DNA from: a virus
Strand: one strand, 5' to 3'
DNA: 37,647 bases
Virus record (IMG/VR): IMGVR_UViG_3300027747_003941
Span: 1-37,647 of that record
The notes under the pieces were generated by a model. The model searched no databases. It was not told the origin of the DNA and saw only the letters and a list, made by a program, of their open reading frames with translations. Shown piece after piece: positions 4,948 through 37,350 of the stretch. The translations under genes and the position numbers were made by a program. Position 1 is the stretch's first letter. Each line of letters starts with the position of its first letter.

Positions 4948-4948
4948 A

Positions 4949-7657: not shown

Positions 7658-7664
7658 AAAATAT

Positions 7665-11907: not shown

Positions 11908-11908
11908 T

Positions 11909-12584: not shown

Positions 12585-12806
12585 ATGCAAAATCAACAAT
12601 CAGGATTTAGCCTATTTGTAGGATTTATTATGGCTATTTTCAATCATGTATTTGGATGGTTAAACAATATTGAACCTACAAATCATTTACCAAGTATGTT
12701 TCAAGCCCTTTTGATGGGTATTTTTGGTGCATTTGGTACATATATTGGTAATCAACTAATTAAAAATTTAAAGAAACGTTTTACAAAAGATGCTGAAAAT
12801 AAATAA
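12585..12806 (+). CDS. Small two-helix membrane protein, holin-like
   Basis: A 73-residue protein with two hydrophobic segments (residues about 9-25 and 39-57), a connecting loop (NNIEPTNHLPS) and a basic tail (LKKRFTKDAENK). This architecture is that of small holins, but it is too general to assign. It starts the plus-strand structural-looking gene set and overlaps the next gene by 17 bases. The 57 bases upstream are AT-rich and may hold its promoter. Confidence 0.65.
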   Translation: MQNQQSGFSLFVGFIMAIFNHVFGWLNNIEPTNHLPSMFQALLMGIFGAFGTYIGNQLIKNLKKRFTKDAENK

Positions 12807-13269
12807 AAAAGGTAAATTTTTATTGTATTCTATACCTATTGTTGTGGGGGTATATCTTATTTTCATGCAATTTTCAAAAGCAAAAAAGGCTAAAAGTATG
12901 CCTGTTTCTCCGACTCCTCCCCAACCACAAACACCTACAAAACCAACTCAAAAAACAGCAAATGATTCATTTCCATTACAAATTGGCAGTAGAGATGCAG
13001 GAGCACCTTTAGCACCTGCAGGTAGAGTTGTGGCTTTACAAAAAATGATAAATCAAAAAGGATATTTAGATAATGGTGTTAATAAATTATTAAAAGAAGA
13101 TGGTATTTTTGGCCCTAAAACTGCAACTGCTGTCGAATATTGGATAGAACAAGATAGTGTTGATAATTTAGATGATTGGAATTTAATTTTTAGAAAAATT
13201 GCTCCATTTATTGCAGCACCACCATCATATGATGTATTACAAGACTCTTACAAGATAACAAATTTTTAA
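12790..13269 (+). CDS. Membrane-anchored protein with a peptidoglycan-binding-like domain
   Basis: A 159-residue protein with an N-terminal membrane helix (about 9-28), a Pro/Thr-rich linker (PVSPTPPQPQTPTKPTQK) and a C-terminal domain at about 70-125 resembling PG_binding_1: VVALQKMINQKGYLDNG then LKEDGIFGPKTATAVEYW. The conserved DGxFGPKT core is clear. It should hold peptidoglycan from a membrane location. It has no catalytic domain, so it probably works as a tether or adaptor with the lytic enzymes at 34.2-35.5 kb. Confidence 0.75.
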   Translation: MLKINKKGKFLLYSIPIVVGVYLIFMQFSKAKKAKSMPVSPTPPQPQTPTKPTQKTANDSFPLQIGSRDAGAPLAPAGRVVALQKMINQKGYLDNGVNKLLKEDGIFGPKTATAVEYWIEQDSVDNLDDWNLIFRKIAPFIAAPPSYDVLQDSYKITNF

Positions 13270-13270
13270 A

Positions 13271-13612
13271 ATGGCAGATATAAAAAAAAATACAACGGAT
13301 TTAGTCACATCTGCACAATCAGTTGTTGTAAATCTATTTCAGAAAGCTAATTCATCAAATATTTCCACATCTATAAAAGATGGATTGCTGAATTCAGCTA
13401 ATTCTATTCAATCTTTATTAGACAACGTTTTATTAAATAATGGATTAATTACCGATAAGCAAGTAAATGAATTAGATGCACAACTTGAAATTGCTAAATT
13501 AAAATTATTAGAATCAAAAAGTAATAATACAGTAATGAATTTAGCTATGTATGTTGGGCTTGGGGTAGTTATTGTTGCATTATTATGGTATTTTACATCA
13601 GAAAAAAAATAA
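13271..13612 (+). CDS. C-terminally membrane-anchored protein, 113 aa
   Basis: The first 80 residues are polar and probably helical (SIKDGLLNSANSIQSLLDNV, QVNELDAQLEIAKLKLLESK). A single hydrophobic helix at about 88-107 (MNLAMYVGLGVVIVALLWYF) ends in a short basic tail. It is a tail-anchored design like the proteins at 31002 and 31399. Function unknown. It follows its neighbour by a single base. Confidence 0.72.
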   Translation: MADIKKNTTDLVTSAQSVVVNLFQKANSSNISTSIKDGLLNSANSIQSLLDNVLLNNGLITDKQVNELDAQLEIAKLKLLESKSNNTVMNLAMYVGLGVVIVALLWYFTSEKK

Positions 13613-13615
13613 AAA

Positions 13616-13951
13616 ATGAATAAAGAAACTAATTATAATTTATATAAAGCGGCTATTATTTTAGGTGTAGGAGCTTTGCTTTTTTGGGTTTTAAAACCAA
13701 AAAATAAAAATACAAATACTTCTACTTTGCCAACAACAAAGACAAATGCAGAAGGACCTACTCCAAATATTGAGAATGCAGACATTGTAGCAAATGCATA
13801 TTCAGCAGCTTTAAAAGCAAACGAACCTGCAGGAAGGCTTACTGAATTAAATAAAGAAATGATGAAAGAGTTTGGTATGCGTTGCTTTATGGATAAAGAT
13901 AATAAATTGGTAGTTGTAGATTCAGCAGGTAATACTATTACAGCAAAATAA
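13616..13951 (+). CDS. N-terminally membrane-anchored protein, 111 aa
   Basis: The anchor is YKAAIILGVGALLFWVLKPKNK near residues 10-30, the same 'helix then LKPKxK' layout seen in many genes at 29-36 kb. A low-complexity Asn/Thr stretch follows, then a small domain with VANAYSAALKANEPAGRLTE and MMKEFGMRCFMDKDNKLVVVD. I do not recognise the domain. It lies three bases after the previous stop. Confidence 0.72.
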   Translation: MNKETNYNLYKAAIILGVGALLFWVLKPKNKNTNTSTLPTTKTNAEGPTPNIENADIVANAYSAALKANEPAGRLTELNKEMMKEFGMRCFMDKDNKLVVVDSAGNTITAK

Positions 13952-13953
13952 AA

Positions 13954-14637
13954 ATGATTTTTAATGTTACTATAATTCATCATGCCTTACCTGCTATTTC
14001 AGTTGTTGTAGCAGATGGTGGTAATGGCGTAGGTGGAGTAACGTATAAAGAATTAAAGCAATCATTAGGAAATCAAGTCTATGATGTAGGATGTTTATAT
14101 TTATTTTCTGATAACACAAAACAATTAATAGGAACTATTAATTACAATATTTATGATGTAAATGGTAATGCTGAAATTACAAACATAGCAACAACAATTG
14201 ACCCATATCAAGCTGTAAATTCACTATTAGTAAAATTAAACGATAAAGTAAACACACCAATAATTTTAAATGGGAATTCAAGCGTATCAACAACCATTTT
14301 ACCAAATACATATGTACAAATAAAATTTTTAGCTGATAGAATTACTAATAAATTAGGCCTTGTAAATAATAATTTTACTCAAATGCAAGAAATTACTAAT
14401 ACTAATTTCTTTGAATCTACTTATAGTAAAGCAGGAGATGCTTTAAGTTGTTCGGGTAGAGAAAATTTATTAACAGGTCAAAATACTTTAATACAAAAGA
14501 CTGATGTATTAGAAAATTTGCCTTCTAAAACTATAACAACAGATACAGGAATAATTCATAAATATGAACCTGATTATACTTTTTTATTATTAATTGCTTC
14601 AGTTTCTGCTGGAGTTTATATTTTTAGCAAACAATAA
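13954..14637 (+). CDS. Protein with C-terminal membrane anchor, 227 aa
   Basis: The ectodomain reads as beta-rich (VSVVVADGG-like opening, TIDPYQAVNSLLVKLND, PNTYVQIKFLADRI). The last 20 residues are a hydrophobic helix (YTFLLLIASVSAGVYIFSK). No family is recognisable. Stop and start of the next gene overlap as TAATG, coupling it to the threonine-rich protein, so the two may be partners. Confidence 0.7.
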   Translation: MIFNVTIIHHALPAISVVVADGGNGVGGVTYKELKQSLGNQVYDVGCLYLFSDNTKQLIGTINYNIYDVNGNAEITNIATTIDPYQAVNSLLVKLNDKVNTPIILNGNSSVSTTILPNTYVQIKFLADRITNKLGLVNNNFTQMQEITNTNFFESTYSKAGDALSCSGRENLLTGQNTLIQKTDVLENLPSKTITTDTGIIHKYEPDYTFLLLIASVSAGVYIFSKQ

Positions 14638-16670
14638 TGCCAATACAAGGATTAGACATATCGTTAAATGTTAGAAACAATACTAATTACCCACAACAAA
14701 TAAATGTTATGGGTAATCCGTCTAATTTGTTAGATACAGCTAATTCAACAACAGAATATAGGTATGATTTAACAGGTTTTACAATTACTACAGAAAATAA
14801 TGTGTCAATACAATATAGAAGAATCGGAGATTTGTCTTTTTCAATTTTCACTTTTAATTTAGAAAGTACACAACTTAATGGTATTGTATTAGCTTTAAAT
14901 AATTTAGGAATTGGCTATTTTAATTTATATTCAGAATTAGGTAATACATATATTGGTACATATAATGATAATTATGAATTTGGTGATTTAAATGTTTATG
15001 GGTCAACAACCACAACAACTACAACGACCACTACAACAACTGCTGCACCCACTACTACTACTACTACAACTACTACTACGACAACGGCTGCACCTTCTAC
15101 TACGACAACAACAACAAGTACGACAACGGCTGCACCTACGACTACTACTACAACAACAAGTACGACAACGGCTGCACCTACGACTACGACAACAACAACA
15201 AGTACAACAACGGCTGCACCTATCACTACGACAACAACAACAACAACAACAACACCTCCACCTTCTACTACGACAACAACTACAAGTACGACAACGGCTG
15301 CACCTACGACTACTACTACAACAACAAGTACAACAACGGCTGCACCTACGACAACAACAACAACAACAAGTACGACAACGGCTGCACCTACGACTACGAC
15401 AACAACTACTACTACAACAACACCTGCATTCTCTCAATATTCCTTAACATACAATATTGGAGATTTTGCATCAAGTGCTTGTGATGGTAACACAGGAAAT
15501 ACAGGGCCATTTAATTACTATACGGCACTACAACCATTAGCTAATGGGTCAATATTGTATTCAAATCAATCATTATTATCTCCTGCAAATAATGGGTTCT
15601 ATTCAAATAATATATTTAATTGGGAAATTAATGACTCAAATGGTACGTTGACTAATCAAACGCCATGTATTCCTGCAACAACTACTACTACAACAACTAC
15701 AACAACAACAATAGCATTTAGTACTTATAGTTTGCAACCAAGTGGAATAGACCAAGCTGATGCTTGTGCAACTTATCCAAATAGTTTAGTATCGTATTAC
15801 ACTACTTTTGGAACACCTTTACAAGATGGGACAATAATTTATTTAGATTCTGCATTAATGATTGTTGCGGGAAATGGTTATTATTCTGATGGTACAAATT
15901 CATGGCAAATAGCAGGTGAAGATGGAATGTTAGTAAATCAAGCAGCTTGTATAATACCAACAACAACTACGACAACAACTACTACTACAACAACACCTGC
16001 ATTCTCTCAATATTCATTAACATACAATATTGGAGATTTTGCATCAAGTGCTTGTGATGGTAACACGGGTAATGTAGGACCATTTGATTACTATACTGCA
16101 CTACAACCATTATCTGATGGTTCAATTTTATATTCAAATACATCATTAACATCTCCTGCAAATAATGGGTTCTATTCAAATAATATATTTAATTGGGAAA
16201 TTAATGACTCAAATGGTACATTAGCGAATCAAACACCATGTATTCCTGCTACAACAACAACAACTACTACTACTACTACAACTTCAACAACTACAATAGC
16301 TCCAACAAATAATTGGGAATGGACAAATAATAATGTTGCTGAAACTCCTCCTTTTGGTGGTGGTTATATAACTATTGATGTGAATGGTATAAATGTAGTA
16401 AATCAAAACGATACAAGTAGTACTTCTACAATTACTTATAGTGGATACATTCCAATAAATATAGGTGATTTAGTAAGTATTTATGTATACAGCTATGCAA
16501 ATAATACAAGTGGAACATTAACTGCCTTAAATGTACAAAATCCTGTAGGTAATATAATTTATAATGCAAATGACCCACAAAGTAATGCAGGTTCGTCATC
16601 AAGTGAAACATATACATTTAATGCAACTGCAACTGATATGTTGATAATAGCAAGTTCAAATTCTTTTTAA
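14637..16670 (+). CDS. Threonine-rich, mucin-like modular structural protein
   Basis: A 677-residue protein. Residues 1-120 form an N-terminal beta-rich domain. Residues about 122-262 are almost pure Thr with AAP or PPP spacers and a period near 14 residues (T7-S-T3-A-A-P). Three related globular domains of about 80-85 residues follow, near 263-347, 360-441 and 454-538, separated by further poly-Thr linkers. Each has a conserved core of the form Y-x-L, ILYSN, NGFYSNN and NWEI, plus cysteine pairs. A distinct C-terminal domain fills about 558-677. The Thr tracts are probable rigid spacers and possible O-glycosylation sites. No signal peptide or membrane helix is seen, which suggests a virion surface or fibre protein rather than a host-exported one. 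Two glycosyltransferase genes follow directly. Confidence 0.8.
   Translation: MPIQGLDISLNVRNNTNYPQQINVMGNPSNLLDTANSTTEYRYDLTGFTITTENNVSIQYRRIGDLSFSIFTFNLESTQLNGIVLALNNLGIGYFNLYSELGNTYIGTYNDNYEFGDLNVYGSTTTTTTTTTTTTAAPTTTTTTTTTTTTAAPSTTTTTTSTTTAAPTTTTTTTSTTTAAPTTTTTTTSTTTAAPITTTTTTTTTTPPPSTTTTTTSTTTAAPTTTTTTTSTTTAAPTTTTTTTSTTTAAPTTTTTTTTTTTPAFSQYSLTYNIGDFASSACDGNTGNTGPFNYYTALQPLANGSILYSNQSLLSPANNGFYSNNIFNWEINDSNGTLTNQTPCIPATTTTTTTTTTTIAFSTYSLQPSGIDQADACATYPNSLVSYYTTFGTPLQDGTIIYLDSALMIVAGNGYYSDGTNSWQIAGEDGMLVNQAACIIPTTTTTTTTTTTTPAFSQYSLTYNIGDFASSACDGNTGNVGPFDYYTALQPLSDGSILYSNTSLTSPANNGFYSNNIFNWEINDSNGTLANQTPCIPATTTTTTTTTTTSTTTIAPTNNWEWTNNNVAETPPFGGGYITIDVNGINVVNQNDTSSTSTITYSGYIPINIGDLVSIYVYSYANNTSGTLTALNVQNPVGNIIYNANDPQSNAGSSSSETYTFNATATDMLIIASSNSF
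15005..15425 (+). repeat. Poly-threonine codon repeat array
   Basis: A run of ACA/ACT/ACG codons interrupted by GCTGCACC (Ala-Ala-Pro) blocks. The best-kept unit is 42 bases, coding T7-S-T3-A-A-P. Neighbouring units match almost exactly, as expected of expansion by slippage or unequal exchange. Shorter Thr runs occur at about 15679-15712, 15959-15997 and 16252-16303. Confidence 0.9.
15423..15676 (+). repeat. Duplicated globular module, copy 1
   Basis: This roughly 254-base segment encodes the first globular module after the Thr array and is nearly the same at DNA level as 15994-16250, with only scattered substitutions. The intervening module (about 15715-15957) is clearly related in protein pattern but diverged in DNA. 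This points to a recent copying of the flanking modules inside one gene. Confidence 0.85.
15994..16250 (+). repeat. Duplicated globular module, copy 2
   Basis: The partner of the copy at 15423-15676, starting at the same PAFSQYSLTYN and ending at the same TPCIPA. Differences are mostly single-base changes. Confidence 0.85.
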
Positions 16671-22318: not shown

Positions 22319-23248
22319 CTAATCAGTAAAATCTTTAAAAAGTTTATCTTTTGATTTTTCGTATTGAATTTTAGTCAATTTACCCTCTTTGTACGCTTTT
22401 TCTATTTGTCCAAATAATTTATCAAAAAGTTTTAATTGTTCTTTTTTCCAAACTTTTGCTTTATAAGCAGTTTTGTTATTTTTTGTTTTTTCTACTTTTT
22501 TTGAAATTTTAGCAAATGCATCAAGATTTGAATTGATTGTTTTTCTCGTTCTTTTTCTGCTATCCTTTTTAACTTTTAAGGCTTTAATTCTTGCTTCAAT
22601 TATTTGTTTTACTTCAGTCTTCTTTTTTCTATTTTCTCTCGTTTTAGGTATTTCAAATTCAACTGAAACTGCATCCGCTTGTGCTTTTTCCCTTCCTTTG
22701 CTGTCAATAATAAATAAAACAAAATCTAAATAATAATTTTCAGGAGTTCCGTCATTCTTTTTTCTTGGTCTAAGTTTTTTGTATCCTGAAAAAATATACT
22801 TTCCTGAAGCACCATCTGCATCGGGTCTAATAGCTTCCACTATGTCTCTTACACCTTTCCCACCATATTCGTAATTTCGTGTATTAAATATTTTTGTATC
22901 ACCATATTCTCCTGCAGAAACCTTAACAAAAACACAATCAGGGACTAATTCTCTTATTGTTTCATCTAATAAAAACCACTCAACAAATGCAAATTCCGAT
23001 GGGTCAATATAGTTTAGGTCACATATTTCTTTAGGCGGTATTTTATCATAAATTTCAAAAATTTGATTTTTAAGCCCTTTAACTCTTAATTTGTATGATG
23101 GAATTTCTTTGTACTGAGGATAAATCTCTTCTTTTATAATCTTTCTACGTTCCTTTATCGATAGCTTACGTTCTTCAGGTAGTGAATTATTTATCTTCGT
23201 AAATTCCTTAAGAATCCGATTATAGGTAGAAGTCTTTTTTTTAGCCAT
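22319..23248 (-). CDS. Highly basic protein of unknown function, 309 aa
   Basis: Lysine and arginine make up a large part of the chain, especially in the N-terminal 60 and the last 120 residues (RKKKTEVKQII, KKDSRKRTRK, KAKVWKKEQLK). A central folded part has DPSEFAFVEWFLLDETIREL, FVKVSAGEYGDTKIF and YYLDFVLFIIDSKG. It is probably a nucleic-acid-binding protein. Its place immediately upstream of the palm-like protein would suit a replication partner, even a terminal protein, but nothing in the sequence proves that. The start follows a TAAATTTG -7 element by about 28 bases. Confidence 0.68.
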   Translation of the reverse strand: MAKKKTSTYNRILKEFTKINNSLPEERKLSIKERRKIIKEEIYPQYKEIPSYKLRVKGLKNQIFEIYDKIPPKEICDLNYIDPSEFAFVEWFLLDETIRELVPDCVFVKVSAGEYGDTKIFNTRNYEYGGKGVRDIVEAIRPDADGASGKYIFSGYKKLRPRKKNDGTPENYYLDFVLFIIDSKGREKAQADAVSVEFEIPKTRENRKKKTEVKQIIEARIKALKVKKDSRKRTRKTINSNLDAFAKISKKVEKTKNNKTAYKAKVWKKEQLKLFDKLFGQIEKAYKEGKLTKIQYEKSKDKLFKDFTD

Positions 23249-28597: not shown

Positions 28598-29791
28598 ATG
28601 AAGACTGAAACCAAAGTTGGTATTGGTGTAGCTTTAGCTTTACTTGGAATTTATCTTTATAGTAAAAGCAAAAATTCATCAAAAAAAACTATTTCTACAA
28701 CTAATGTTGATAATTCTACACAGAACACAGGCACTAAAACAAATGATGTTATATCAACCCCTCCAATAGTTCAAATAACTCCTGTACCTGTTACTCCACA
28801 TCCTTTAGATGAATTTATCCCACCTGCACCGAGTCCTGCACCTGCACCGAGTCCTGCACCTGCACCGAGTCCTGCACCTGCACCGAGTCCTGCACAACCT
28901 ATTGAAAATTTTCCTATTCAAACATATCCTATTGAAAATATTCCAATAGAAAATCTTCCGATAGATACAATACAAAATCCAATTGATGTGTATCCTGTAT
29001 CGGAACCAGAACCAATCCCCGTGCCAAGACCACAGCCAAATCCAAAAAATGGTCCTGAACCAAATCCAATAGATGTATTTTTCCCACCAACATATATTCC
29101 AATCATCAATCCACCAACACCAAATCCTCCTGAAAGAAAAGGTGGTATTGAAATAGGGGAATTAGACAAAGGTGAATATGGCCCAAGCAATCCAATTGAT
29201 GTATTTATTCCACCAACATATATTCCAATCATCAATCCACCAACACCAAATCCTCCTGAAAGAAAAGGGGGTATTGAAATAGGGGAATTAGACAAAGGTG
29301 AATATGTAATTGGAATTCAAGACCCTATTATTGCTCCAATGCCTGTTGTTATGCCAATAGAAACAAATCCAACACCTGAAAGAAAAGGCAGCATAGAAGT
29401 AGGTCAATTAGATGAAGGAGAATATATACCTAATTATCATCCAATTGATGAATTTATTCCACCACTTCCTGCACCTCCTGCACCTCCCGCACCTGAAAGA
29501 AAAGGCAGCATAGAAGTAGGTCAATTAGATGAAGGACAATATGAATCTGATATTATAAATCAACAACCAAATATAAGTAATGATACTTCTGATTATAGTT
29601 TTCCAAAACTATTAGTAAGTAATGGTGGAGGTTCTGATACTTTTTCCGACAATTTTACTCTTTATAATGGAGGTGGTGTTGGTCAAAGTTTAAATGACTT
29701 TATTTTTAATCAGAGTTTATCGGGTGGTGATGTAGGTAATAAACGTGGTTCTATAATAGTAGGTGAATTAGATGAAGGAACATATGGATAA
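28598..29791 (+). CDS. Membrane-anchored proline-rich repeat protein
   Basis: A 397-residue protein. The N-terminal anchor is KVGIGVALALLGIYLYSKSK at 6-25. A (PAPAPS)n stretch follows, then long Pro-rich segments. A recurring block of the form ERKGGIEIGELDKGEY (or ERKGSIEVGQLDEGEY) appears four times and once more at the C terminus (KRGSIIVGELDEGTYG). The blocks are spaced by PIDVFIPPTYIPIINPP or variants. The Pro-rich parts should be extended, giving a stalk of considerable length reaching out from a membrane. I start at 28598; an earlier start would fall before the promoter's expected start site. Confidence 0.78.
   Translation: MKTETKVGIGVALALLGIYLYSKSKNSSKKTISTTNVDNSTQNTGTKTNDVISTPPIVQITPVPVTPHPLDEFIPPAPSPAPAPSPAPAPSPAPAPSPAQPIENFPIQTYPIENIPIENLPIDTIQNPIDVYPVSEPEPIPVPRPQPNPKNGPEPNPIDVFFPPTYIPIINPPTPNPPERKGGIEIGELDKGEYGPSNPIDVFIPPTYIPIINPPTPNPPERKGGIEIGELDKGEYVIGIQDPIIAPMPVVMPIETNPTPERKGSIEVGQLDEGEYIPNYHPIDEFIPPLPAPPAPPAPERKGSIEVGQLDEGQYESDIINQQPNISNDTSDYSFPKLLVSNGGGSDTFSDNFTLYNGGGVGQSLNDFIFNQSLSGGDVGNKRGSIIVGELDEGTYG
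29063..29305 (+). repeat. 126-base tandem repeat inside the proline-rich gene
   Basis: Two copies (29063-29188 and 29189-29305, the second slightly shorter) encode the same 42-residue unit and are nearly identical in DNA, indicating recent duplication. Two further units of different linker length (ends near 29425 and 29541) are related at protein level. Confidence 0.85.
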
Positions 29792-29879
29792 TTTTAAAAT
29801 AAGTAAAAATTTAAATAGCGTTGTAATAATATTTGGTGCAGTAGCAGCAATATTGATTATTAATAAATTAATAAAATAA
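29784..29879 (+). CDS. 31-residue single-helix membrane miniprotein
   Basis: The ATG at 29784 overlaps the end of the proline-rich gene and the TAA at 29877-29879 is one base before the next ATG. The product has one hydrophobic helix (SVVIIFGAVAAILIINKLI) with basic ends. Its exact fit between neighbours supports it. Confidence 0.6.
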   Translation: MDNFKISKNLNSVVIIFGAVAAILIINKLIK

Positions 29880-29880
29880 A

Positions 29881-30207
29881 ATGGAAAAAAATAAAAAAAT
29901 GTTATTGATTGGTGGAGGTATTGCTGCTTTAGGTATTATTACATATCTAATTGTATCAAATAAAAATAAAACTACATCCAACACATCAGTATTAACATCA
30001 GTTGGTAATTGTCCTGCAGGTCAAGTGCCATGTAGTAACAACAAATCAAAATGTTACAACCCATCTTTAACTTATGTTATTGACCCTTGTGCGACTATAA
30101 CCAATACAAAACAAACAAATACAAATACAAATACTACACTCAATCCGATTGCAGAAATCGTTGATGGATTATTTAATTTGTTCAAAAAGAAACCTGCTAC
30201 TACATAA
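29881..30207 (+). CDS. N-terminally anchored small protein, 108 aa
   Basis: Anchor MLLIGGGIAALGIITYLIVS at about 7-26 after a lysine-rich start. The head has CPAGQVPCSNNKSKC, a close cysteine set, and a polar linker of Asn/Thr. The last part INPIAEIVDGLFNLFKKKP-like (TLNPIAEIVDGLFNLFKKK) is amphipathic. Not assigned to a family; it belongs to the series of anchored proteins here. Confidence 0.7.
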   Translation: MEKNKKMLLIGGGIAALGIITYLIVSNKNKTTSNTSVLTSVGNCPAGQVPCSNNKSKCYNPSLTYVIDPCATITNTKQTNTNTNTTLNPIAEIVDGLFNLFKKKPATT

Positions 30208-30233
30208 TAGTAATAGCATGAGAAATTAAAAAT

Positions 30234-30635
30234 ATGAGCAAATTAATAGATAGGCTCACAACAGGAGATGTAATATATACTTCTTGTGTAGAAATTCCTT
30301 TTTGTTATCATTTAGGCATTGTAGTCGATTATGGAAACAGAAAAAGAATATTTCACAACTGCCCCAATAACAAAAACAAATTTGGTGGTAGTGTTTGTTC
30401 TGAATCATACGATACTTTTATGAAAGAAAGAGAAGTAATGAAAATAGTAAGAACAAATGTTAGTGTAGAACAAATTGAAAAAGCATCTCGTAAATGTAAA
30501 AAAGTTGTATGGGATACTTTCTTTTTTAATTGTGAAGACTATATTTTAGAGATAGTTGAAGGTAAAAGGAGGTCCGATTTGAGAGATGCTTGGAAAATAT
30601 CAGCTTTAGGGATTGCAATAATAAGTTTAATGTAA
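30234..30635 (+). CDS. LRAT/NlpC-P60-like (permuted papain fold) protein
   Basis: A 133-residue protein. H26 in CYHLGIVVDYG, H41 in RIFHNCP and C100 in FFFNCEDYI match the H-box, second polar residue and NCE box of the LRAT/H-rev107 group, a circularly permuted NlpC/P60 fold that includes acyltransferases, phospholipases and peptidases. The order (His before Cys) fits that group. The C terminus is weakly hydrophobic (WKISALGIAIISLM) and could attach to a membrane. The function may be cleavage of lipid or peptidoglycan. Context with muralytic genes favours wall or membrane action. Confidence 0.65.
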   Translation: MSKLIDRLTTGDVIYTSCVEIPFCYHLGIVVDYGNRKRIFHNCPNNKNKFGGSVCSESYDTFMKEREVMKIVRTNVSVEQIEKASRKCKKVVWDTFFFNCEDYILEIVEGKRRSDLRDAWKISALGIAIISLM

Positions 30636-30645
30636 ATTTACAAAT

Positions 30646-30999
30646 ATGAAAATAGAAAATATTTTAATTGGTGGTTTGATAGGAGGGATTATTGCCTATT
30701 TTATACTAAAACCTAAAAAGACTGCAAATGCAAGTGGTACATGTACTTGTAATCAAATACCTTGTAATTGTAGAAATACAAATTTAACTTCTCATTTCAA
30801 AGATGAATTAAGCAAAGCACAAGCAAAATTTGTAGATTTTGATGCAGAAAGTGATAATTTTAGCAAAGACCCTGATGCACCTCAATCACAACCCTACATT
30901 GTTACTTATGGTAATCCAAATATAAGTGGTGTGCCGGTCCATGCAGGTTTTTCATATCCTAACAAGGAACTTTTTAATGTATCACCTTTCAAGCATTAG
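30646..30999 (+). CDS. N-terminally anchored small protein, 117 aa
   Basis: Anchor IENILIGGLIGGIIAYFILK then PKK, as in neighbours. A short cysteine cluster follows (CTCNQIPCNC) and a polar domain (FKDELSKAQAKFVDFDAESD) with a C-terminal segment GVPVHAGFSYPNKELF. No family found. Confidence 0.7.
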   Translation: MKIENILIGGLIGGIIAYFILKPKKTANASGTCTCNQIPCNCRNTNLTSHFKDELSKAQAKFVDFDAESDNFSKDPDAPQSQPYIVTYGNPNISGVPVHAGFSYPNKELFNVSPFKH

Positions 31000-31001
31000 T
31001 A

Positions 31002-31397
31002 ATGGCAGGTAAATTACCAAATTCAAGTGTTAAAGCTCCAGACCCTTTTCAGGCGGCTGCCCAAGTCATTAATGGCACGGTTCAACAATTATTTCAAAAT
31101 AAAATATACAAGGCTCAAGCAGAACAAATTAATATGCAAAGTCGGCTTGACCAACTTAGCAATTCTCAACAATATGCTTTATCACTAAAACTACAAGCTG
31201 CACAAACTGATTCTGAAAGATTCAGGATTATGCAAGACGCTGTTTCAAAAATAGATGTTGCAACAATTGAAGGTAATGCTTCAATATTATCTGCTTCAGT
31301 TACGGCAAATTCAAAAAATACTACAACTATTCTAATAGTGGTAACGGCAGGAATAGCTTTATTAATTGGTGCGTATTATGTAATAAATAAAGACTAA
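31002..31397 (+). CDS. Coiled-coil protein with C-terminal membrane anchor, 131 aa
   Basis: Helical, Gln/Ala-rich body (AAAQVINGTVQQLFQNKIYK, QYALSLKLQAAQTDSERFRI), probably a coiled coil, with a tail helix ILIVVTAGIALLIGAYYVIN at about 107-127. The overall design is the same as at 13271 and 31399. Two bases separate it from the previous gene. Confidence 0.7.
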   Translation: MAGKLPNSSVKAPDPFQAAAQVINGTVQQLFQNKIYKAQAEQINMQSRLDQLSNSQQYALSLKLQAAQTDSERFRIMQDAVSKIDVATIEGNASILSASVTANSKNTTTILIVVTAGIALLIGAYYVINKD

Positions 31398-31398
31398 A

Positions 31399-32094
31399 AT
31401 GGCAACTTCACTAAATAAATTTATGTACGGAGCTGATGATGATGCAAATTTAAGGGCTCAATTATTAGCAGTTACGAATTTACTTGGATGCAATTCAGAC
31501 CAACAACAATGGTTATCCTTTTTCAGTAATCCCACAAATATTGCTGGTATGAAAGAGGCTAATGCTAAATATGGTATACCTGCAAAAAATAGACAATCAT
31601 ATCATACAGGTTTAGGAATGTTTGGCACTTGGCATGACTTCTGCGATTGGGGCGATGTATTTAGATTTTATTATTATTCTAAAATTGCACAAGATTATCC
31701 AACATTAAATCCTGATGTAAAATCTAATTGTAATGTTATTAAGGGCTATATACAAGGTCTTGAAAATGAAAAAGTTAATGTAGATAAAGAGTTCACAATT
31801 AAAAATGATAATGAAAGGAGAGTTAGACAATTAGAAGTCATTAATGAAAAACTTAATGATTTTAATAGCCTTTACGCTACTATGAGTTGTGATACTTGGA
31901 TAGCAGACCAAGATAGAATTAAGGTAGAAGCAGCAAGAACAAAAGCATTAAAACAATCAGAAGCAAGTAATATAGCAGTTTATCAACAAACTGCACAACA
32001 ATCGTCTACAAGTACAACCAAGATAGCATTGTATGTTTTAGGGGGTGTAGCCGTGCTAATAACAATAATTATATTAACAAAGAAAAAAGAGTAA
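31399..32094 (+). CDS. C-terminally anchored protein, 231 aa
   Basis: An ectodomain of about 180 residues (NLRAQLLAVTNLLGCNSDQQ, SYHTGLGMFGTWHDFCDWGD, DVKSNCNVIKGYIQGLENEK), with cysteines that could pair, a helical neck, and a membrane helix at about 208-227 (IALYVLGGVAVLITIIIL) followed by KKKE. Not recognised. One base separates it from the previous gene, and another start (32096) follows immediately. Confidence 0.7.
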   Translation: MATSLNKFMYGADDDANLRAQLLAVTNLLGCNSDQQQWLSFFSNPTNIAGMKEANAKYGIPAKNRQSYHTGLGMFGTWHDFCDWGDVFRFYYYSKIAQDYPTLNPDVKSNCNVIKGYIQGLENEKVNVDKEFTIKNDNERRVRQLEVINEKLNDFNSLYATMSCDTWIADQDRIKVEAARTKALKQSEASNIAVYQQTAQQSSTSTTKIALYVLGGVAVLITIIILTKKKE

Positions 32095-32095
32095 A

Positions 32096-32173
32096 ATGGT
32101 AACTGTAACTGATAATTCAGTATTAAGAACGGAAATACAAAAAGAGATAAATTTTAAAAAAAATGTCAAATAA
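32096..32173 (+). CDS. 25-residue possible miniprotein
   Basis: A short frame from the ATG at 32096, one base after the previous stop, to a TAA inside the next start region. The product is polar (VTVTDNSVLRTEIQKEI) with no helix anchor. Support is limited to position. Confidence 0.35.
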   Translation: MVTVTDNSVLRTEIQKEINFKKNVK

Positions 32174-32288
32174 CTCTAAAATATTGATTGCCACTTTAGT
32201 AGGGATAGCTCTTATAAATTTTTATCTTCAACATAAATCAGGTAAGAAATTAGATGAAATAAAAAGCATAATAAAATCAAACAACTAA
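32163..32288 (+). CDS. 41-residue single-helix membrane miniprotein
   Basis: One hydrophobic helix (ILIATLVGIALINFYLQ) and a basic helical tail (KSGKKLDEIKSIIKSNN). It lies between two genes of the same type with a three-base gap to the next ATG. Same architecture as the neighbouring anchors without a head domain. Confidence 0.6.
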   Translation: MSNNSKILIATLVGIALINFYLQHKSGKKLDEIKSIIKSNN

Positions 32289-32291
32289 ATT

Positions 32292-32684
32292 ATGGAAAAA
32301 CAAACAAAAATATTATTAGGATTAGCTGCGGCAGGAGTCGTGGCTTATCTTGTTTTTAAGCCTAAAAAGGCAGTAGTTCAAAATACAACTGACCCATATT
32401 TATGTCCTCAAGGTTATAAATTGACTGCAAAGCCGATGGGCTTAAGTTCTATGATAGTTTGTGAAGATTCAAATAACAATCAAGCAGATAAAATAGTTAA
32501 CCCAAACTATGACAAAAACAAAGTAATAATTCCTACTAAAAATAAGGATGTTCCTATGTCTAATATAGATTGGAAACATTTAATGGACAAGGTTGATAAT
32601 GCTTGTATAGAAGACCCAAATTCATATAATTGTTATGTATCAAAAGGTGGTGGGTTTATGCCAATTCTAAAAAATCAAGGATAA
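32292..32684 (+). CDS. Anchored protein of a paralogous trio, member 1 (130 aa)
   Basis: Anchor TKILLGLAAAGVVAYLVF then KPKKAV, almost identical to the next gene. The head has CPQGYKLTAKPMG with a second cysteine at IVCEDSN and a further pair near the end (NACIEDPNSYNCYVSKGG), which may form disulfides. No known family. The stop overlaps the next start (TAATG). Confidence 0.72.
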   Translation: MEKQTKILLGLAAAGVVAYLVFKPKKAVVQNTTDPYLCPQGYKLTAKPMGLSSMIVCEDSNNNQADKIVNPNYDKNKVIIPTKNKDVPMSNIDWKHLMDKVDNACIEDPNSYNCYVSKGGGFMPILKNQG

Positions 32685-33139
32685 TGGAAAGAAATACAAA
32701 AATATTAATAGGATTAGCTTTGGCAGGTGTTGTCGCTTATCTTGTTTTTAAGCCTAAAAAGGCAGTAACTAAATCTAATTTACCTCCTTTTAATGATTTC
32801 CCTGACATGAGTAAAATTCTTTCAAATCATATAAATCCAATTCCATATGGAGATGAAAATAATTTTATTTATAAATATAAAGTAATTAAACCTATTAGTT
32901 TTGGAAGTGGCTATTTTAGTGATAATACATCTTTTAATAGTTTAGCACCTAAAGTTGGGGATATTATAGAAACTAATGGAGCAGAAATTTTACCTCAATA
33001 TATGGCAGGTGGCGGTATAGCTTATCCATATCAAATTTGTATAACACCTTTATATCATAGTATCCAAGATAAAGAATGTCATGATGTTTTAATTCCTTAT
33101 GATTCTTTAGAAAATTTAGGACAAATTATTTATACCTAA
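32684..33139 (+). CDS. Anchored protein of a paralogous trio, member 2 (151 aa)
   Basis: I start at 32684, where TAATG couples it to the previous stop. The anchor TKILIGLALAGVVAYLVF then KPKKAV is shared with member 1 even at DNA level, but the head is unrelated (YKYKVIKPISFGSGYF, PKVGDIIETNGAEIL, PYQICITPLYHSI), looking like a small beta domain. The stop overlaps the next start (TAATG). Confidence 0.72.
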   Translation: MERNTKILIGLALAGVVAYLVFKPKKAVTKSNLPPFNDFPDMSKILSNHINPIPYGDENNFIYKYKVIKPISFGSGYFSDNTSFNSLAPKVGDIIETNGAEILPQYMAGGGIAYPYQICITPLYHSIQDKECHDVLIPYDSLENLGQIIYT

Positions 33140-33585
33140 TGGGAAAACAAACAAAAATATTAATAGGATTAGCTGCGGCAGGTGTCGTGGCTTTTGCTTT
33201 ATGGAGAAACTTTGGAGTTAAATCTACAGGTTCTATAGTTTTAAATTCTCCGCTTGGAACTACTAATGATACGAGTAACGAACAAAAAGAATTGATTGAA
33301 AAAATAAAGAATGTTGGAAATCCTAAAGAAGGCGATACAATAATCACATCATTTGGTAAAAACAAATTTTCAAATGGTGTTTGGACAAAATATGCAGAAG
33401 TGTGGCAGGGATTTGCAAATGAACAAAAAAATAAATGTCCTAATGGATATAGATATGTAAAATATCCTTTGATTAAAGGATTTAAAGAACATATGTCTGA
33501 TATTTATGGTGGTAAATGCGTTGAAAATGACGTAAATATCACTATAGAAGACGAACAAATACATCCTGCACCAAAATTCAAATAA
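33139..33585 (+). CDS. Anchored protein of a paralogous trio, member 3 (148 aa)
   Basis: Anchor TKILIGLAAAGVVAFALWRN. The head has a polar linker, then EGDTIITSFGKNKFSNGVW and CPNGYRYVKYPLIKG, the latter comparable to CPQGYK of member 1, with another cysteine in GGKCVEND. Not assigned. The trio suggests duplication followed by exchange of heads. Confidence 0.7.
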   Translation: MGKQTKILIGLAAAGVVAFALWRNFGVKSTGSIVLNSPLGTTNDTSNEQKELIEKIKNVGNPKEGDTIITSFGKNKFSNGVWTKYAEVWQGFANEQKNKCPNGYRYVKYPLIKGFKEHMSDIYGGKCVENDVNITIEDEQIHPAPKFK

Positions 33586-33596
33586 AAATTCATAAA

Positions 33597-33758
33597 ATGA
33601 CAGAATCACAAAAATTAATATCATCATTAGCTTATACAGGTGCAGCTTTTTTATTCTTAAGCAGTTTTTGGATAGAAGATAAACAAATTGCTGTGAATAG
33701 AAGAATTGTATCTTTTGTAGCTTTAGGAGTAGGTTTATACTTCACAAAAACAAAATAA
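33597..33758 (+). CDS. 53-residue two-helix membrane miniprotein
   Basis: Two hydrophobic segments (SSLAYTGAAFLFLSSFW and IVSFVALGVGLYFT) with a short charged connection (IEDKQIAVNRR). Hairpin topology, which might be holin-like or structural. It occupies the gap between two other anchored proteins with no overlap. Confidence 0.6.
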   Translation: MTESQKLISSLAYTGAAFLFLSSFWIEDKQIAVNRRIVSFVALGVGLYFTKTK

Positions 33759-33773
33759 TTTAAATCAAACAAC

Positions 33774-33908
33774 ATGACAAACAAAACAAAAATGTGGTTA
33801 GGCGTAGCAGCATTAGCAGCTATTGCTTATTATTTCTTAGTGTGGGAAAAAAGTGCTACTGACCAAGCAAACGATGCAGCCAAAAAAAATTATGTAACTA
33901 ATTATTAA
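33774..33908 (+). CDS. 44-residue single-helix membrane miniprotein
   Basis: Anchor MWLGVAALAAIAYYFLVW preceded by TNKTK, then a short charged tail (EKSATDQANDAAKK). The leader AAATCAAACAAC is like those of neighbouring genes. Same anchor pattern as the larger proteins. Confidence 0.6.
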   Translation: MTNKTKMWLGVAALAAIAYYFLVWEKSATDQANDAAKKNYVTNY

Positions 33909-33915
33909 ATTTTAT

Positions 33916-34194
33916 ATGAATAAAGAATTAAAATTAACTATAGGACTAATTGCTGTAACAGCTTTAGGGTATTATTTATGGAAACAAAGTCAAAAAACAA
34001 CACCCGTAGTAACATCTACAAGTGTTGAGCCAACTCCACCTGTATCTACAATGCCTGTTACTCCTGTAGAGAGCATGCCAGCACCAACATCTAATTTTAT
34101 AGATACAAAGTCAATCTTTGCACCTTATGCAAACATGGCTGCAGCTCCTTCAGGAGGTTTTTTCGATAGTCAAAAGGCAAAACTTAACTATTAA
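33916..34194 (+). CDS. N-terminally anchored small protein, 92 aa
   Basis: Anchor LKLTIGLIAVTALGYYLWKQ, then a Pro/Thr-rich linker (SVEPTPPVSTMPVTPVESMP) and a short terminal segment (NFIDTKSIFAPYANMAAAPS). It stops one base before the lysozyme start region. No family. Confidence 0.7.
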   Translation: MNKELKLTIGLIAVTALGYYLWKQSQKTTPVVTSTSVEPTPPVSTMPVTPVESMPAPTSNFIDTKSIFAPYANMAAAPSGGFFDSQKAKLNY

Positions 34195-34195
34195 G

Positions 34196-34843
34196 ATGAA
34201 CAAAGATAATGCTATAAGTATAGCTATGGATTTTATCAAGCAATGGGAACAGCTTGGTTTAAAGAGTGAAAATGGTGGTCATTATACACCACTACAAGCA
34301 AGTTCACTTTCTCCTGAAACTTTATTATACGCTTATCCTGATGGAAAATCATATAGTATTGGATGGGGGACTTACAATAAATTTCCTTCAGATGGTTCAA
34401 AAATTACGGCTAATACAATAATTAATAAAGAAAAAGCTGATTCTGAATTTGAAGACGAAGTTTTATACTTAATAATTCCTGCAATTGATAATCAAATTAC
34501 AAGAGACTTAAACGAAAACGAATATGCCGCTTTAGTAAGTTTTGCTTATAATGCAGGGCCTAATGCTCTTAAATATAATGGACTAATTGATGCAGTTAAT
34601 AACGGAGGGGATGTTGTTGGTATTCTAAAGAGAACAGCCCTTACAGACCAACAAACAGGTAAAATATCTAATGGCTTGGTAAATCGTAGAAAAGACGAAG
34701 CAGCTTTATATTCAGGTGAAAGAAATGCTTTGTATTCATATTATTTAAGGAATGCTTCAACAATAAATTACGCTGTAATAGGCGTGGTATTAATTGGGTT
34801 ATCAGGATATATATACTATTTAAAAAGAAAAAAATTATTTTAG
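34196..34843 (+). CDS. GH24 (T4-type) lysozyme with C-terminal membrane anchor
   Basis: A 215-residue enzyme. E18 in FIKQWEQLG is the expected catalytic glutamate. YPDGKSYSIGWGTYN near 47-61 supplies the aspartate and the GxGT-like strand. EYAALVSFAYNAGPNAL near 103-119 and NGLVNRRKDEAALYSG near 160-175 are typical of phage GH24 lysozymes. A hydrophobic helix follows (about 191-208: YAVIGVVLIGLSGYIYYL), ending KRKKLF. Free endolysins lack this; an anchor suggests action from a membrane or a virion. I start at 34196; the upstream in-frame region belongs to the previous gene. Confidence 0.87.
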   Translation: MNKDNAISIAMDFIKQWEQLGLKSENGGHYTPLQASSLSPETLLYAYPDGKSYSIGWGTYNKFPSDGSKITANTIINKEKADSEFEDEVLYLIIPAIDNQITRDLNENEYAALVSFAYNAGPNALKYNGLIDAVNNGGDVVGILKRTALTDQQTGKISNGLVNRRKDEAALYSGERNALYSYYLRNASTINYAVIGVVLIGLSGYIYYLKRKKLF

Positions 34844-34844
34844 A

Positions 34845-35504
34845 ATGATAACAGGAAAACAACTAAAAGCAATTTGTACAACTTTAAAACAAGAAAGAGC
34901 TGACGAAATAGCTGAACTGATGAATAAATCATTCCCTAAGTATAAAATAGACACTCCTATAAGAATACAGGCCTTTATTGCTCAAGTAGCTCACGAAAGT
35001 GGTGAATTTACAATAAAAACAGAGAGTTTGTATTATACCACTCCCGAAAGAATTTGTGCTATATGGCCTTCAAGATTCAATATGGATGGTTCAAATAAAA
35101 AATTAAATGCACACGATTATGTGAAAAATCAAGAAAAATTGGCGAATACTGTATATGCCAATAGAATGGGTAATGGCGATTTTGCAAGTGGAGATGGGTT
35201 TAGATATAGAGGTGGTGGTAATATGCAGCTTACAGGTAAGGAATCATATGAAAAATATGCTAAATACGTTGGTAAAGATGTTAGGGAAACAGCAGACTTA
35301 GTAAGAAGTACCGATGAATATGCTTTAGATTCAGCTTGTTGGGAGTTTGCTATAGATAAGCAACTAAACGATGAGGCTGATAGAGGAGAATTCATCACAA
35401 TCACAAAAAAAATTAATGGTGGTACTATTGGGATTGAGGAAAGGCAAAAATATTACGCAAGAGCAAAAACAAATATTGTTTCAATATCCGATAACATAGC
35501 ATAA
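34845..35504 (+). CDS. GH19 chitinase-like muralytic enzyme
   Basis: A 219-residue GH19 protein. FIAQVAHESGEF near 44-55 has the catalytic glutamate (E51). GFRYRGGGNMQLTGKESY near 118-135 and ITKKINGGTIGIEERQKYY near 189-207 are strong family marks. GH19 members in phages cut peptidoglycan. There is no membrane helix or signal peptide. It is one base after the anchored lysozyme and its stop overlaps the next start (TAATG). Two different wall-cutting enzymes side by side may serve entry and release separately. Confidence 0.9.
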   Translation: MITGKQLKAICTTLKQERADEIAELMNKSFPKYKIDTPIRIQAFIAQVAHESGEFTIKTESLYYTTPERICAIWPSRFNMDGSNKKLNAHDYVKNQEKLANTVYANRMGNGDFASGDGFRYRGGGNMQLTGKESYEKYAKYVGKDVRETADLVRSTDEYALDSACWEFAIDKQLNDEADRGEFITITKKINGGTIGIEERQKYYARAKTNIVSISDNIA

Positions 35505-36202
35505 TGGAAAAATCAACAAAAATTATAATTGGATTAGGTATTTTAGGTTTATTAGGGTACTTAATTTTCAAAAAAAAGTCTTCACCTAAAAATATTACTA
35601 CTGTAAAAAAAGTAGTAACACCAAAAAAATCTATTACTCCTATTGAGCCTGTACCTTCAGAGCCTTTGCCTATTAATACACCTATAGTTCCTTCTGTACC
35701 TGTTATAGAACCTGAACCTATAGTTGAAAACCCAATTATACATCCTAAAACAGGTAAAATAGTTCCTCCAATTACTAAAAAACCTGAAATACCTGAAAAT
35801 CCTATATCACTACCCGATTTACCACCAATAGTAATTGATTATAGTAATTTAAATCCAAACATAGGTTCATCTTTAGTGAATACAAATGTTGTCAATACTG
35901 ACCCTTATGCCAATTGTAAAACACAAAAAGAGTGGGATACTATAAAAATGAAAGGAGGTTATGTTCCTAATAATCCGTGTATAATATTTGAAGGTACATC
36001 AAGTGGTCAAACAGGAGGTAGCTTTGATATGAAAACTACAAAAGATACAACTTTAGAAAATGTTAATGCAACACTAAATGATTTGATGAAACAAGGGAAA
36101 GACTATACAAATATTTATACTCCTGGGTCATTTGGAGGAGAAAGACAAAACTTAAGAGAAGGAATCGACCCGTATGGATATGGAGGCGTTGCATCAGCAT
36201 AA
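35504..36202 (+). CDS. Anchored proline-rich protein, 232 aa
   Basis: Anchor TKIIIGLGILGLLGYLIF then KKKSS. A long Pro-rich section (PIEPVPSEPLPINTPIVPSV and onward, residues about 45-115) should form a stiff extended rod. The C-terminal region has CKTQKEWDTIKMKGGYVPNN and ends with a Gly-rich segment. Comparable in plan to the proline-rich gene at 28598. Confidence 0.72.
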   Translation: MEKSTKIIIGLGILGLLGYLIFKKKSSPKNITTVKKVVTPKKSITPIEPVPSEPLPINTPIVPSVPVIEPEPIVENPIIHPKTGKIVPPITKKPEIPENPISLPDLPPIVIDYSNLNPNIGSSLVNTNVVNTDPYANCKTQKEWDTIKMKGGYVPNNPCIIFEGTSSGQTGGSFDMKTTKDTTLENVNATLNDLMKQGKDYTNIYTPGSFGGERQNLREGIDPYGYGGVASA

Positions 36203-36211
36203 TCTCATTAT

Positions 36212-36742
36212 ATGAACGTTTTTAATAAATACGCAATTTCAGGCGAGTTCTTTTATCAAGTAGGTTCGGTTTACACTAAGAAGCCTTGGAAAATGCCAAC
36301 ATATGAAAACGTTGAAGAATTATTAAATGAAATAAAAAATATTTCACCATACGATATGTATTTAGTAGGTGGTGTTGTCAATGGTAAAATAGGGAATACT
36401 TGGGATATAGACATAATTGTAACAGGTCCAATTGTCTATCAAGAATTTGAGGATGTGATTCATAATATTTATGACATTTCATTAAATAAATACAGACTAT
36501 TAGTAGACATAAGATGGATAAATAAATCTATTGATAGATTACAATATTTAATTGATAATAAATTATCAGAAACATATAAAAGTGTTAGATTTGGATATTA
36601 TTTGAAAAAAATAGGAGATGAAGTTTCAGAAATTAATCTTTTTGAAAATTCAAAAAAATTAACTGATTATTTGATTGAAAGAGAAGTAACTTTTCCAACT
36701 GAAAAATCATTGACAACTAATAATAATTTTATACGAATTTAA
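36212..36742 (+). CDS. Polymerase-beta-superfamily nucleotidyltransferase
   Basis: A 176-residue protein. MYLVGGVVNGKIGNTWDIDI (residues 49-68) gives GG at 53-54 and the aspartates D65 and D67; LLVDIRW provides the third at D99. These are the three metal ligands of the minimal nucleotidyltransferase fold, used for transfer of NMP to RNA ends, antibiotics or proteins. No partner antitoxin or RNA-binding domain is seen. The role in this virus is unknown; tRNA modification or protein nucleotidylation are options, and the next tRNA-like gene is only 312 bases away. Confidence 0.75.
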   Translation: MNVFNKYAISGEFFYQVGSVYTKKPWKMPTYENVEELLNEIKNISPYDMYLVGGVVNGKIGNTWDIDIIVTGPIVYQEFEDVIHNIYDISLNKYRLLVDIRWINKSIDRLQYLIDNKLSETYKSVRFGYYLKKIGDEVSEINLFENSKKLTDYLIEREVTFPTEKSLTTNNNFIRI

Positions 36743-36756
36743 TAAAAACAATTTTT

Positions 36757-37032
36757 ATGAAACAAATGATAAATTGGTTTATAGGTTTTTTTGATTCAAC
36801 AAATGAAAAATCATCAAGTAAAAGGTTAGTAGGAATATTAGGTGCATTTTCTTTATTTTATACTTTATTACGACATAAAATAGAATCAGATTCTGTTATG
36901 AATACACTAATTTGGGCTATTGTATTAGTAATTTGCGTTTCTTTAGGATTAGCATCAGTAAAGGATTTTTCAGGGCTGATTGGTAAATTTAAAGGTGATA
37001 AAACAAATGATTCAGAATCACCATCAAAGTAA
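36757..37032 (+). CDS. Two-helix membrane protein, holin-like, 91 aa
   Basis: Short amphipathic start (MINWFIGFFDSTN), a charged segment, helix 1 (VGILGAFSLFYTLL), a polar loop (RHKIESDSVM) and helix 2 (TLIWAIVLVICVSLGLAS), then a soluble tail ending in ESPSK. The pattern fits small holins that act with lytic enzymes upstream, but it is not diagnostic. Confidence 0.65.
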   Translation: MKQMINWFIGFFDSTNEKSSSKRLVGILGAFSLFYTLLRHKIESDSVMNTLIWAIVLVICVSLGLASVKDFSGLIGKFKGDKTNDSESPSK

Positions 37033-37053: not shown

Positions 37054-37160
37054 TGTAGGGTGGTGAAATAGGATAGGGGTAACCCAATCGTGGCAAACAC
37101 ACTTCTCAGTCTCGGAAGCGGAGTTAAAACTCTCTGAAGGTTCGAATCCTTCCCCTACAG
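37054..37160 (+). tRNA. Aberrant class II tRNA-like gene (Leu-like)
   Basis: The acceptor stem is TGTAGGG/CCCTACA with discriminator G at 37160. The T arm is GAAGG-TTCGAAT-CCTTC. The long variable arm is GGAGT-TAAA-ACTCT, and the D stem is GTG/CAC. The anticodon stem CTTCT/GGAAG encloses the loop CAGTCTC, so position 33 is A instead of T and the triplet at 34-36 would be GTC. The D loop has an 18-base insert (37072-37089) that itself folds as GAT-A-GGG, GTAA tetraloop, CCC-A-ATC. Removing it leaves a normal Leu-type D arm. It may be a decayed tRNA or one with a special role. CCA is not encoded. Confidence 0.6.
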
Positions 37161-37167
37161 CAACAGA

Positions 37168-37210
37168 ACCCATTTGCATACCATCAGAACTGCACTTGGG
37201 TCATTTTTTT
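37168..37210 (+). terminator. Second copy of the tRNA trailer hairpin with T-run
   Basis: ACCCATTTGCA pairs with TGCACTTGGGT (9 of 11 positions) around TACCATCAGAAC, followed by CA and seven T residues. Relative to the copy at 1147 the fifth pair changes C-G to A-T and the eighth changes A-T to T-A, both keeping pairing, while the loop differs at a single base. Confidence 0.7.
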
Positions 37211-37350
37211 GGATATATCAATAACGCATCCAAACATTTTTAATACTTGTATTAACCCTTGAATATTGTAATTAGTTTTATTTTGCTCAATTTTTCTTAG
37301 AACTGTCAAAGCAATTCCGCTTTTATATGCAAATTCCATTTGTGTCAATC
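37184..37350 (-). pseudogene. Xre-type helix-turn-helix domain, out of frame with the gene upstream
   Basis: In the frame one base off from the GIY-YIG gene, the minus strand encodes SVGLTQMEFAYKSGIALTVL, RKIEQNKTNYN and QVLKMFG, a clean HTH_3 (Xre) domain, and then stops at TGA 37186-37184 inside the trailer hairpin. It has no start codon of its own nearby (only an internal ATG in QMEFA). Adding one base to the A10 run at 37362-37371 would join it to the GIY-YIG product. So it is either the detached C-terminal domain of a broken gene or a domain reached by slippage. Confidence 0.65.

Follow-up and report, generated by a model that had tools for sequence, protein, structure and literature searches.

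A series of small membrane-anchored proteins in viral DNA that probably derives from a tailless, membrane-containing virus

The Tectiviridae (PRD1, GC1, phiKo) have linear DNA, an internal membrane, many small single-pass membrane proteins, lytic enzymes in the virion and the packaging ATPase P9. In PRD1, membrane proteins organise the membrane and form a DNA-delivery tube, and P7 and P15 are annotated in its record as lytic enzymes of the virion. Salisaeta icosahedral phage 1, whose host belongs to the Bacteroidota in the broad sense, is a large (43.8 kb) membrane-containing phage with an ATPase and several structural proteins. Vertical single-jelly-roll capsid proteins, a conserved packaging ATPase and many virion membrane proteins mark the Sphaerolipoviridae and Halopanivirales (SH1, HCIV-1 and the Thermus phage P23-77). 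The genomes of the Sphaerolipoviridae are linear double-stranded DNA (dsDNA), bear terminal inverted repeats and encode no canonical DNA polymerase (PMC12643093). FLiP, of the Finnlakeviridae, is a membrane-containing Flavobacterium phage that has many one-helix proteins and carries a lytic enzyme in its virion. Its genome is circular single-stranded DNA (ssDNA) of 9.2 kb, its capsid protein is a double jelly roll and it has no packaging ATPase; surveyed tailless double-jelly-roll genomes measure 7-18 kb (PMC5894146). Here we describe a stretch of viral DNA of 37,647 nucleotides (IMG/VR record IMGVR_UViG_3300027747_003941, positions 1 to 37,647; hereafter the window), which carries a series of single-pass membrane proteins at 28.6-37.0 kb and which, together with its relatives, is like each of these systems in some respects and unlike it in others.

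We estimate the probability at roughly two in three that the window is a piece of a tailless virus, presumably with dsDNA, probably with a membrane inside its shell and probably infecting Bacteroidota. The layout appears to be that of an internal-membrane virus because the group combines inverted repeats, a jelly-roll-like protein, an adjoining ATPase and many single-pass membrane proteins with no recognizable terminase.

Relatives of the window and their candidate virion block

Direct searches with g48, g30, g29, g44, g50, g16 and the DUF932 protein gave no matches, and relatives were reached first through RecT, then through an alignment of g29 and then through the ATPase of the relatives. 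The RecT search led to G012 (27.4 kb), the g29 alignment to G013 (33.9 kb), G014 (74.1 kb), G015 (60.3 kb) and G016 (51.2 kb), and the ATPase search to two contigs, L089 and L090, which are binned in a Chlamydiales and a Gammaproteobacteria metagenome-assembled genome (MAG) and are probably misbinned viruses. The comparison thus covers seven relatives, five viral records of 27-74 kb and the two MAG-binned contigs. As a route to kin, the GH19-type endolysin g55 led elsewhere: it has 39 relatives in viral contigs, the larger of which, where inspected, are tailed phages, and it was set aside as a case of horizontal transfer. The window and all five viral records have in common RecT (42-56%), an exonuclease (46-59%), g29 (35-52%) and, likewise, g30; an APS kinase, a nucleotidyltransferase, a sulfotransferase, g19, g20 and proteins of both transmembrane (TM) clusters described below are common to the window and subsets of these records.

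In six of the seven relatives (G013, G014, G015, G016, L089 and L090) a candidate virion block contains a P-loop ATPase, a protein of 228-262 amino acids (aa) and single-pass membrane proteins. In G014 a single 58-aa TM protein separates the 282-aa ATPase from the 262-aa protein, and across the other five the ATPase is 49-86% and its neighbor 38-79% identical. TM-positive open reading frames (ORFs) make up about 65-67% of those around the ATPase (18 of 27 in G014, 28 of 42 in G015 and 22 of 34 in G016). A structure model of the 228-262-aa protein, made from L089 (pTM 0.62, beta core pLDDT mostly 73-90), gave weak Foldseek matches, many of them to jelly rolls, including the TNF family, nucleoplasmin, cupins, PRD1 P5 and picornavirus capsids. 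We consider the protein a probable single jelly roll and a putative capsid protein; a double jelly roll is unlikely with a beta core of about 150 residues. The window itself encodes a paralogue of this protein, g19 (13954..14637, + strand), a jelly-roll-like protein with its own C-terminal hydrophobic segment, which aligns to the candidate capsid family with an hhalign probability of 97.6 (E 3.6e-12). The structure model of g19 has a pLDDT of 43, too weak to stand alone, and its top Foldseek matches include jelly-roll coat proteins of plant viruses.

The profile of the ATPase aligns with that of the PRD1/GC1/phiKo/P23-77 packaging ATPases (hhalign probability 67, P 5e-5) over 122 columns that span Walker A, the next strand, a Walker B-like strand and an R...Q motif. 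Since a control, the APS kinase family, matched the same profile at the P-loop alone (21 columns, probability 81), the argument lies in the extent of the alignment and not in its score. A global pairwise alignment with PRD1 P9 was not significant and was not used as evidence. By this alignment the ATPase would belong to the packaging class and would package DNA. Neither it nor the capsid candidate had a tblastn match in 50,697 phage records, so that standard marker searches would overlook the group, and hmmsearch with the capsid, g19, ATPase and g29 profiles found nothing significant in FLiP, PRD1, SSIP-1, P23-77 and PM2. The virion block also includes a conserved HExxH protease-like protein (G014:33359-34141). 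Very large proteins in three relatives (G014:44882-47722, G015:40236-45014 and G016:9020-13864) carry 10-16 copies of a [FYML]A[DKN]GG-type motif; these copies may serve as linkers or be cleaved during maturation.

The ends of G014 carry an exact inverted repeat of 653 bp, which, unless it is an assembly artefact, suggests a linear genome seen end to end; the records that lack such a repeat are probably fragments. The window has no end repeats and, as the ATPase is missing from it, is probably the portion of a larger genome without the capsid block.

Searches for tailed-phage genes found no match to the large terminase PF03237 in the five viral records, and none to the terminase family phrog_2 in these records or the window. 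Portal, HK97 capsid and tail proteins were likewise not found: thirty proteins of the G014 structural regions compared with PHROGs and Pfam gave only fibre-type and lysis matches, the fibre-like proteins matching Peptidase_S74 and tail-fibre PHROGs. PHROG 'terminase' matches in an 823-aa G014 protein (residues 136-521; L075:11989-14457, the coordinates of locus L075 belonging to G014) were rejected as an intein, because a Pfam homing endonuclease (Hom_end) matches there, beside an AAA_5 (MoxR-like) ATPase at 512-646, and because the homologues in G015 and G016 (454 and 467 aa) are about 360 aa shorter and lack the insertion. The first-pass annotation had proposed that a double-jelly-roll capsid protein and a packaging ATPase, as against terminase and portal, be sought outside the window. 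The relatives favor the former in having an ATPase and a jelly-roll-like protein and in yielding no terminase or portal, but the jelly roll is apparently single and these genes lie outside the window.

Like the Halopanivirales, the group shows, in G014 alone, exact inverted terminal repeats consistent with a linear genome. Unlike those viruses, with genomes of 28-31 kb and a haloarchaeal host, it reaches 74.1 kb, more than twice as much, and its host is probably bacterial and non-halophilic, a bacterial host being suggested because the wall-degrading enzymes target peptidoglycan. The Sphaerolipoviridae have two established capsid proteins, whereas we find one clear candidate and one paralogue (g19), and P23-77 has no significant hmmsearch similarity to the capsid or ATPase profile. 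The likeness to the Tectiviridae includes a motif-by-motif alignment of the ATPase with the P9-type profile. In contrast, tectiviruses have a double-jelly-roll capsid protein of about 340-400 aa, genomes of 11-16.5 kb and, in PRD1, a protein-primed polymerase, none of which was found here; the capsid candidate has 228-262 aa with one beta core, and no polymerase was recognized in these genomes. FLiP differs in its small circular ssDNA genome, as against a 74-kb record with inverted repeats, and in the absence of profile matches. Salisaeta icosahedral phage 1 differs in having a circular genome with an integrase and an invertase, and shows no similarity to the ATPase, capsid and g29 profiles. 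The organization thus resembles that of the Sphaerolipoviridae and Tectiviridae, with membership demonstrated in neither, and we found no description of the group in the open-access literature. If the interpretation is true, the 74-kb relative would widen the known size range of tailless bacterial viruses, the largest comparator having 43.8 kb.

The membrane-protein series and its common anchor

Between 28,598 and 37,032 the + strand has sixteen non-overlapping ORFs of at least 45 aa. A hydrophobic segment (Kyte-Doolittle, 19-residue span, cut-off 1.4) is present in 12 of them, as against a mean of 4.3 and a maximum of 9 in 500 residue shuffles, and as against three of the 40 ORFs outside both clusters (Fisher test, p = 1.1e-6). 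The series of small single-pass membrane proteins seen by the first-pass annotation is therefore real, although its statement that nearly every gene is anchored holds only for most: the GH19 endolysin (34845-35504), the nucleotidyltransferase (36212-36742) and probably the product of 30234-30635 are not. Although below the cut-off, g43 and g53 align to members of the anchor family. The first-pass annotation had also overlooked three short ORFs of this type, one that starts MDNFKISKNLNSVVIIFG and is nearly all TM helix (MDNFKISKNLNSVVIIFGAVAAILIINKLIK; 29784..29879) and two of the anchor family (MSNNSKILIATLVGIALI, 32163..32288; MTNKTKMWLGVAALAAIAYY, 33774..33908), all on the + strand. The basic residues noted after the helix prove to be general, with a mean net charge of the post-helix flank of +2.1 in 81 N-anchored and +2.2 in 64 C-anchored proteins of this virus group; as the basic side follows the helix in both kinds, no orientation in the membrane can be deduced from it. 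A lysozyme head had been recognized correctly (Phage_lysozyme, E 2.5e-17 in Pfam, with a C-terminal helix), whereas the supposed 'cysteine knots' are heads that contain cysteines, with no fold identified.

The first 30 residues of the N-anchored proteins are homologous to one another (Z 24.0 for g49-g50, 18.4 for g49-g51, 18.1 for g49-g56 and 16.0 for g50-g56; g43 aligns to g50 and g53 with Z 8.0 and 8.5), while the remainder gives Z of about 0 for most pairs (-1.2 for the g49-g50 heads). Some Pro-rich heads resemble each other, possibly through composition. An 87-base DNA repeat, 89% identical, spans the anchors of g49 and g50. Because the anchors are related while most heads are not, these comparisons indicate that the anchor is duplicated and the heads behind it are replaced. 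Recognized heads in the window are the C-anchored phage lysozyme (g54) and a peptidoglycan-binding domain (g16); anchored heads in G012, identified by sequence motifs only, include an SGNH-type esterase, an SH3-type domain and a CX5R-type phosphatase. This anchor-plus-variable-head layout raises a testable question, namely how a virion membrane gains new enzymatic functions.

The same protein type had also been reported from a second cluster, and five of seven ORFs at 12.6-14.6 kb conform to it. All on the + strand, the genes are g15 (12585..12806), a small and weakly holin-like membrane protein; g16 (12790..13269), with an N-terminal TM helix and a peptidoglycan-binding domain just under the Pfam cut-off; g17 (13271..13612), with a C-terminal TM helix; g18 (13616..13951), with an N-terminal TM helix and KPKN; and the g19 gene. 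Homologues of g16 occur in G012, G013 and G014 and those of g17 in G013 and G014, with a positional counterpart of g17 in G012 and of g18 in both G012 and G014. Next to g19 lies g20 (14637..16670, +), a Thr-rich protein with long repeats (TTTTTTTSTTTAAP), whose N-terminal domain, but no other part, is kept in the five relatives; it is a probable spike or fibre whose repeats would form the stalk.

Interpretation and competing explanations

We propose that the anchor helix would be copied and the head behind it exchanged, to give a set of virus-encoded proteins that would be inserted in the host membrane. A patch of this membrane would be taken into the particle beneath a shell of single-jelly-roll capsomers, and the ATPase would pump in the DNA. 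At entry, the tethered lysozyme, the peptidoglycan-binding protein and other heads would help the particle membrane to cross the wall; this stage of action is proposed for the anchored lysozyme and the wall-binding protein by analogy with the virion enzymes of PRD1, and the free GH19 enzyme and holin would serve lysis. The suggestion that the 28.6-37.0 kb series is a virion membrane module gains from the ATPase, jelly-roll-like protein and apparent lack of terminase in the relatives, and loses from the lysis genes in the block and its resemblance to the genome ends of relatives; these last two points make it possible that some of the proteins act in entry or lysis and not in the shell. Evenly balanced, in our judgment, is the broader proposal of a group, at the rank of family or order, of large (about 74 kb), tailless, internal-membrane bacterial viruses with linear genomes, a single-jelly-roll shell and an expandable set of one-anchor, exchangeable-head membrane proteins (lysozyme, wall-binding, esterase, phosphatase and others).

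Several points weigh against the tailless, membrane-containing virus. The group is known here from sequences alone. The window has neither the ATPase nor the capsid candidate, and its 28.6-37 kb region is a lysis-side cluster and not a capsid block. The inverted repeat occurs in one record only and is possibly an assembly artefact; every Foldseek match of the capsid model lies above E 0.001; the ATPase matches packaging ATPases moderately, with pairwise Z-scores of 1.4-2.3, and is outscored by an unrelated P-loop enzyme (81 versus 67), if over 21 columns only. TM proteins account for 25% of ORFs in tailed-phage records, compared with 40% here. Finally, phrog_2 also misses the terminase of a crAss-like control, G001 (IMGVR_UViG_3300032326_000971), so a very divergent terminase is possible. 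This would allow a tailed phage unusually rich in small membrane proteins, with terminase, portal and tail genes too divergent to recognize, as would the fibre-like proteins of G014 and the genes that the window and G001 have in common: the GH19 endolysin (68%), g38 (66%) and glycosyltransferases. We regard such a phage as improbable, given that a 74-kb record with apparently both ends has no recognizable terminase, portal, HK97 capsid, tail tube or tape measure among the scanned proteins, that the apparent terminase matches are an intein, and that the terminal repeats are inverted and not direct. G001 itself, by our reading, has tailed-phage gene order and sizes, and it lacks the anchor series, the ATPase and the candidate capsid protein.

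Somewhat less remote, though still unlikely, is a host-takeover or lysis module, in which the series would stay outside the particle, the anchored lysozyme, the binding proteins and the phosphatase- and esterase-like heads acting at the host membrane during late infection or modifying the envelope, and the particle type would be a separate matter. The free GH19 endolysin and holin-like protein within the block agree with this, as do the CHAP-type enzyme and holin-like protein at the genome ends of G014 and G013, in G014 near the inverted repeat; yet proteins with this style of anchor also predominate in the block that surrounds the ATPase and candidate capsid protein, and homologues of g48 and g19 are located there. 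Pro-rich rods, coiled coils and wall-binding heads could also bridge an envelope, and G014 encodes polyvalent-protein domains that are found in conjugative elements too. An envelope-spanning secretion or conjugation-like machine on a plasmid-like element is nevertheless scarcely credible: no secretion ATPase, relaxase or coupling protein was recognized, the lysis cassette and fibre proteins, like the candidate capsid protein and the linear ends, are in keeping with a virus, and the window and five records were drawn from a viral collection.

Genes of the block and other features of the genomes

The block opens with g43 (28598..29791), in which an N-terminal anchor (MKTETKVGIGVALALLGIYLYSK) precedes a Pro-rich rod with ERKGSIEVGQLDEGEY repeats; it and the genes from g44 to g56 are on the + strand. 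Cysteine-containing heads follow N-terminal anchors in g44 (29881..30207) and, with KPKK, in g46 (30646..30999), and between these lies g45 (30234..30635), a soluble protein, not convincingly membrane-anchored, with an H...NCEDY motif; it is possibly NlpC/LRAT-like and has no Pfam or PDB match. A coiled coil with a C-terminal TM helix forms g47 (31002..31397), which has homologues in G012, G013 and G014 with the helix at the same place. The 231-aa head of g48 (31399..32094) ends in a C-terminal TM helix and KKKE tail, and the protein has weak similarity to proteins of the virion block in G014, G013 and L089. Variable heads follow the anchor in g49 (32292..32684; anchor MEKQTKILLGLAAAGVVAYLVFKPKKAV), g50 (32684..33139, its start set at ATG 32684) and g51 (33139..33585). 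Beyond g52 (33597..33758), a 53-aa protein with two hydrophobic segments, come g53 (33916..34194), with the anchor and a Pro-rich head, and g54 (34190..34843), the phage lysozyme, which carries a TM helix at its C-terminus and a KRKKLF tail and has a homologue of identical layout in G012 (22384-23028). The GH19-type endolysin g55 (34845..35504) has no TM helix, g56 (35504..36202) combines the anchor with a Pro-rich rod, and the nucleotidyltransferase (36212..36742) precedes g58 (36757..37032, +), a holin-like protein whose relative (55%) adjoins a GH19 endolysin in L004. Beyond the block, at 37100-37215 (+), a sequence resembles a tRNA in its matching acceptor ends and T arm (GGTTCGAATCC); reported by neither ARAGORN nor Rfam, it is perhaps a degenerate tRNA.

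Composition, start contexts and the genes in common with the crAss-like record suggest that the host probably belongs to the Bacteroidota. Shine-Dalgarno counts add weak support, the same crude test being low for PRD1 too. The g29 family (233-259 aa; 21601-22314, - strand, in the window) shares invariant TDLNHAYWRIA and TDC-YY motifs that recall motifs A and C of family-B polymerases, has no Pfam, PHROG or PDB match, and may with g30 form a replication core. A 1,229-aa polyvalent protein of G014 (L075:16006-19692), with ADP-ribosyltransferase (ART-PolyVal) and acetyltransferase domains, is possibly delivered with the DNA. At 1180-12316 the window carries a surface-modification block, partly conserved in relatives, of a carbamoyltransferase, glycosyltransferases, heptosyltransferase-like proteins, a sulfotransferase with APS kinase, and a nucleotidyltransferase. 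At 7665-8315 (- strand), g6 resembles phage seg-type (GIY-YIG) homing endonucleases and has a 45-base match to mobE of the T4-like phage JS10.

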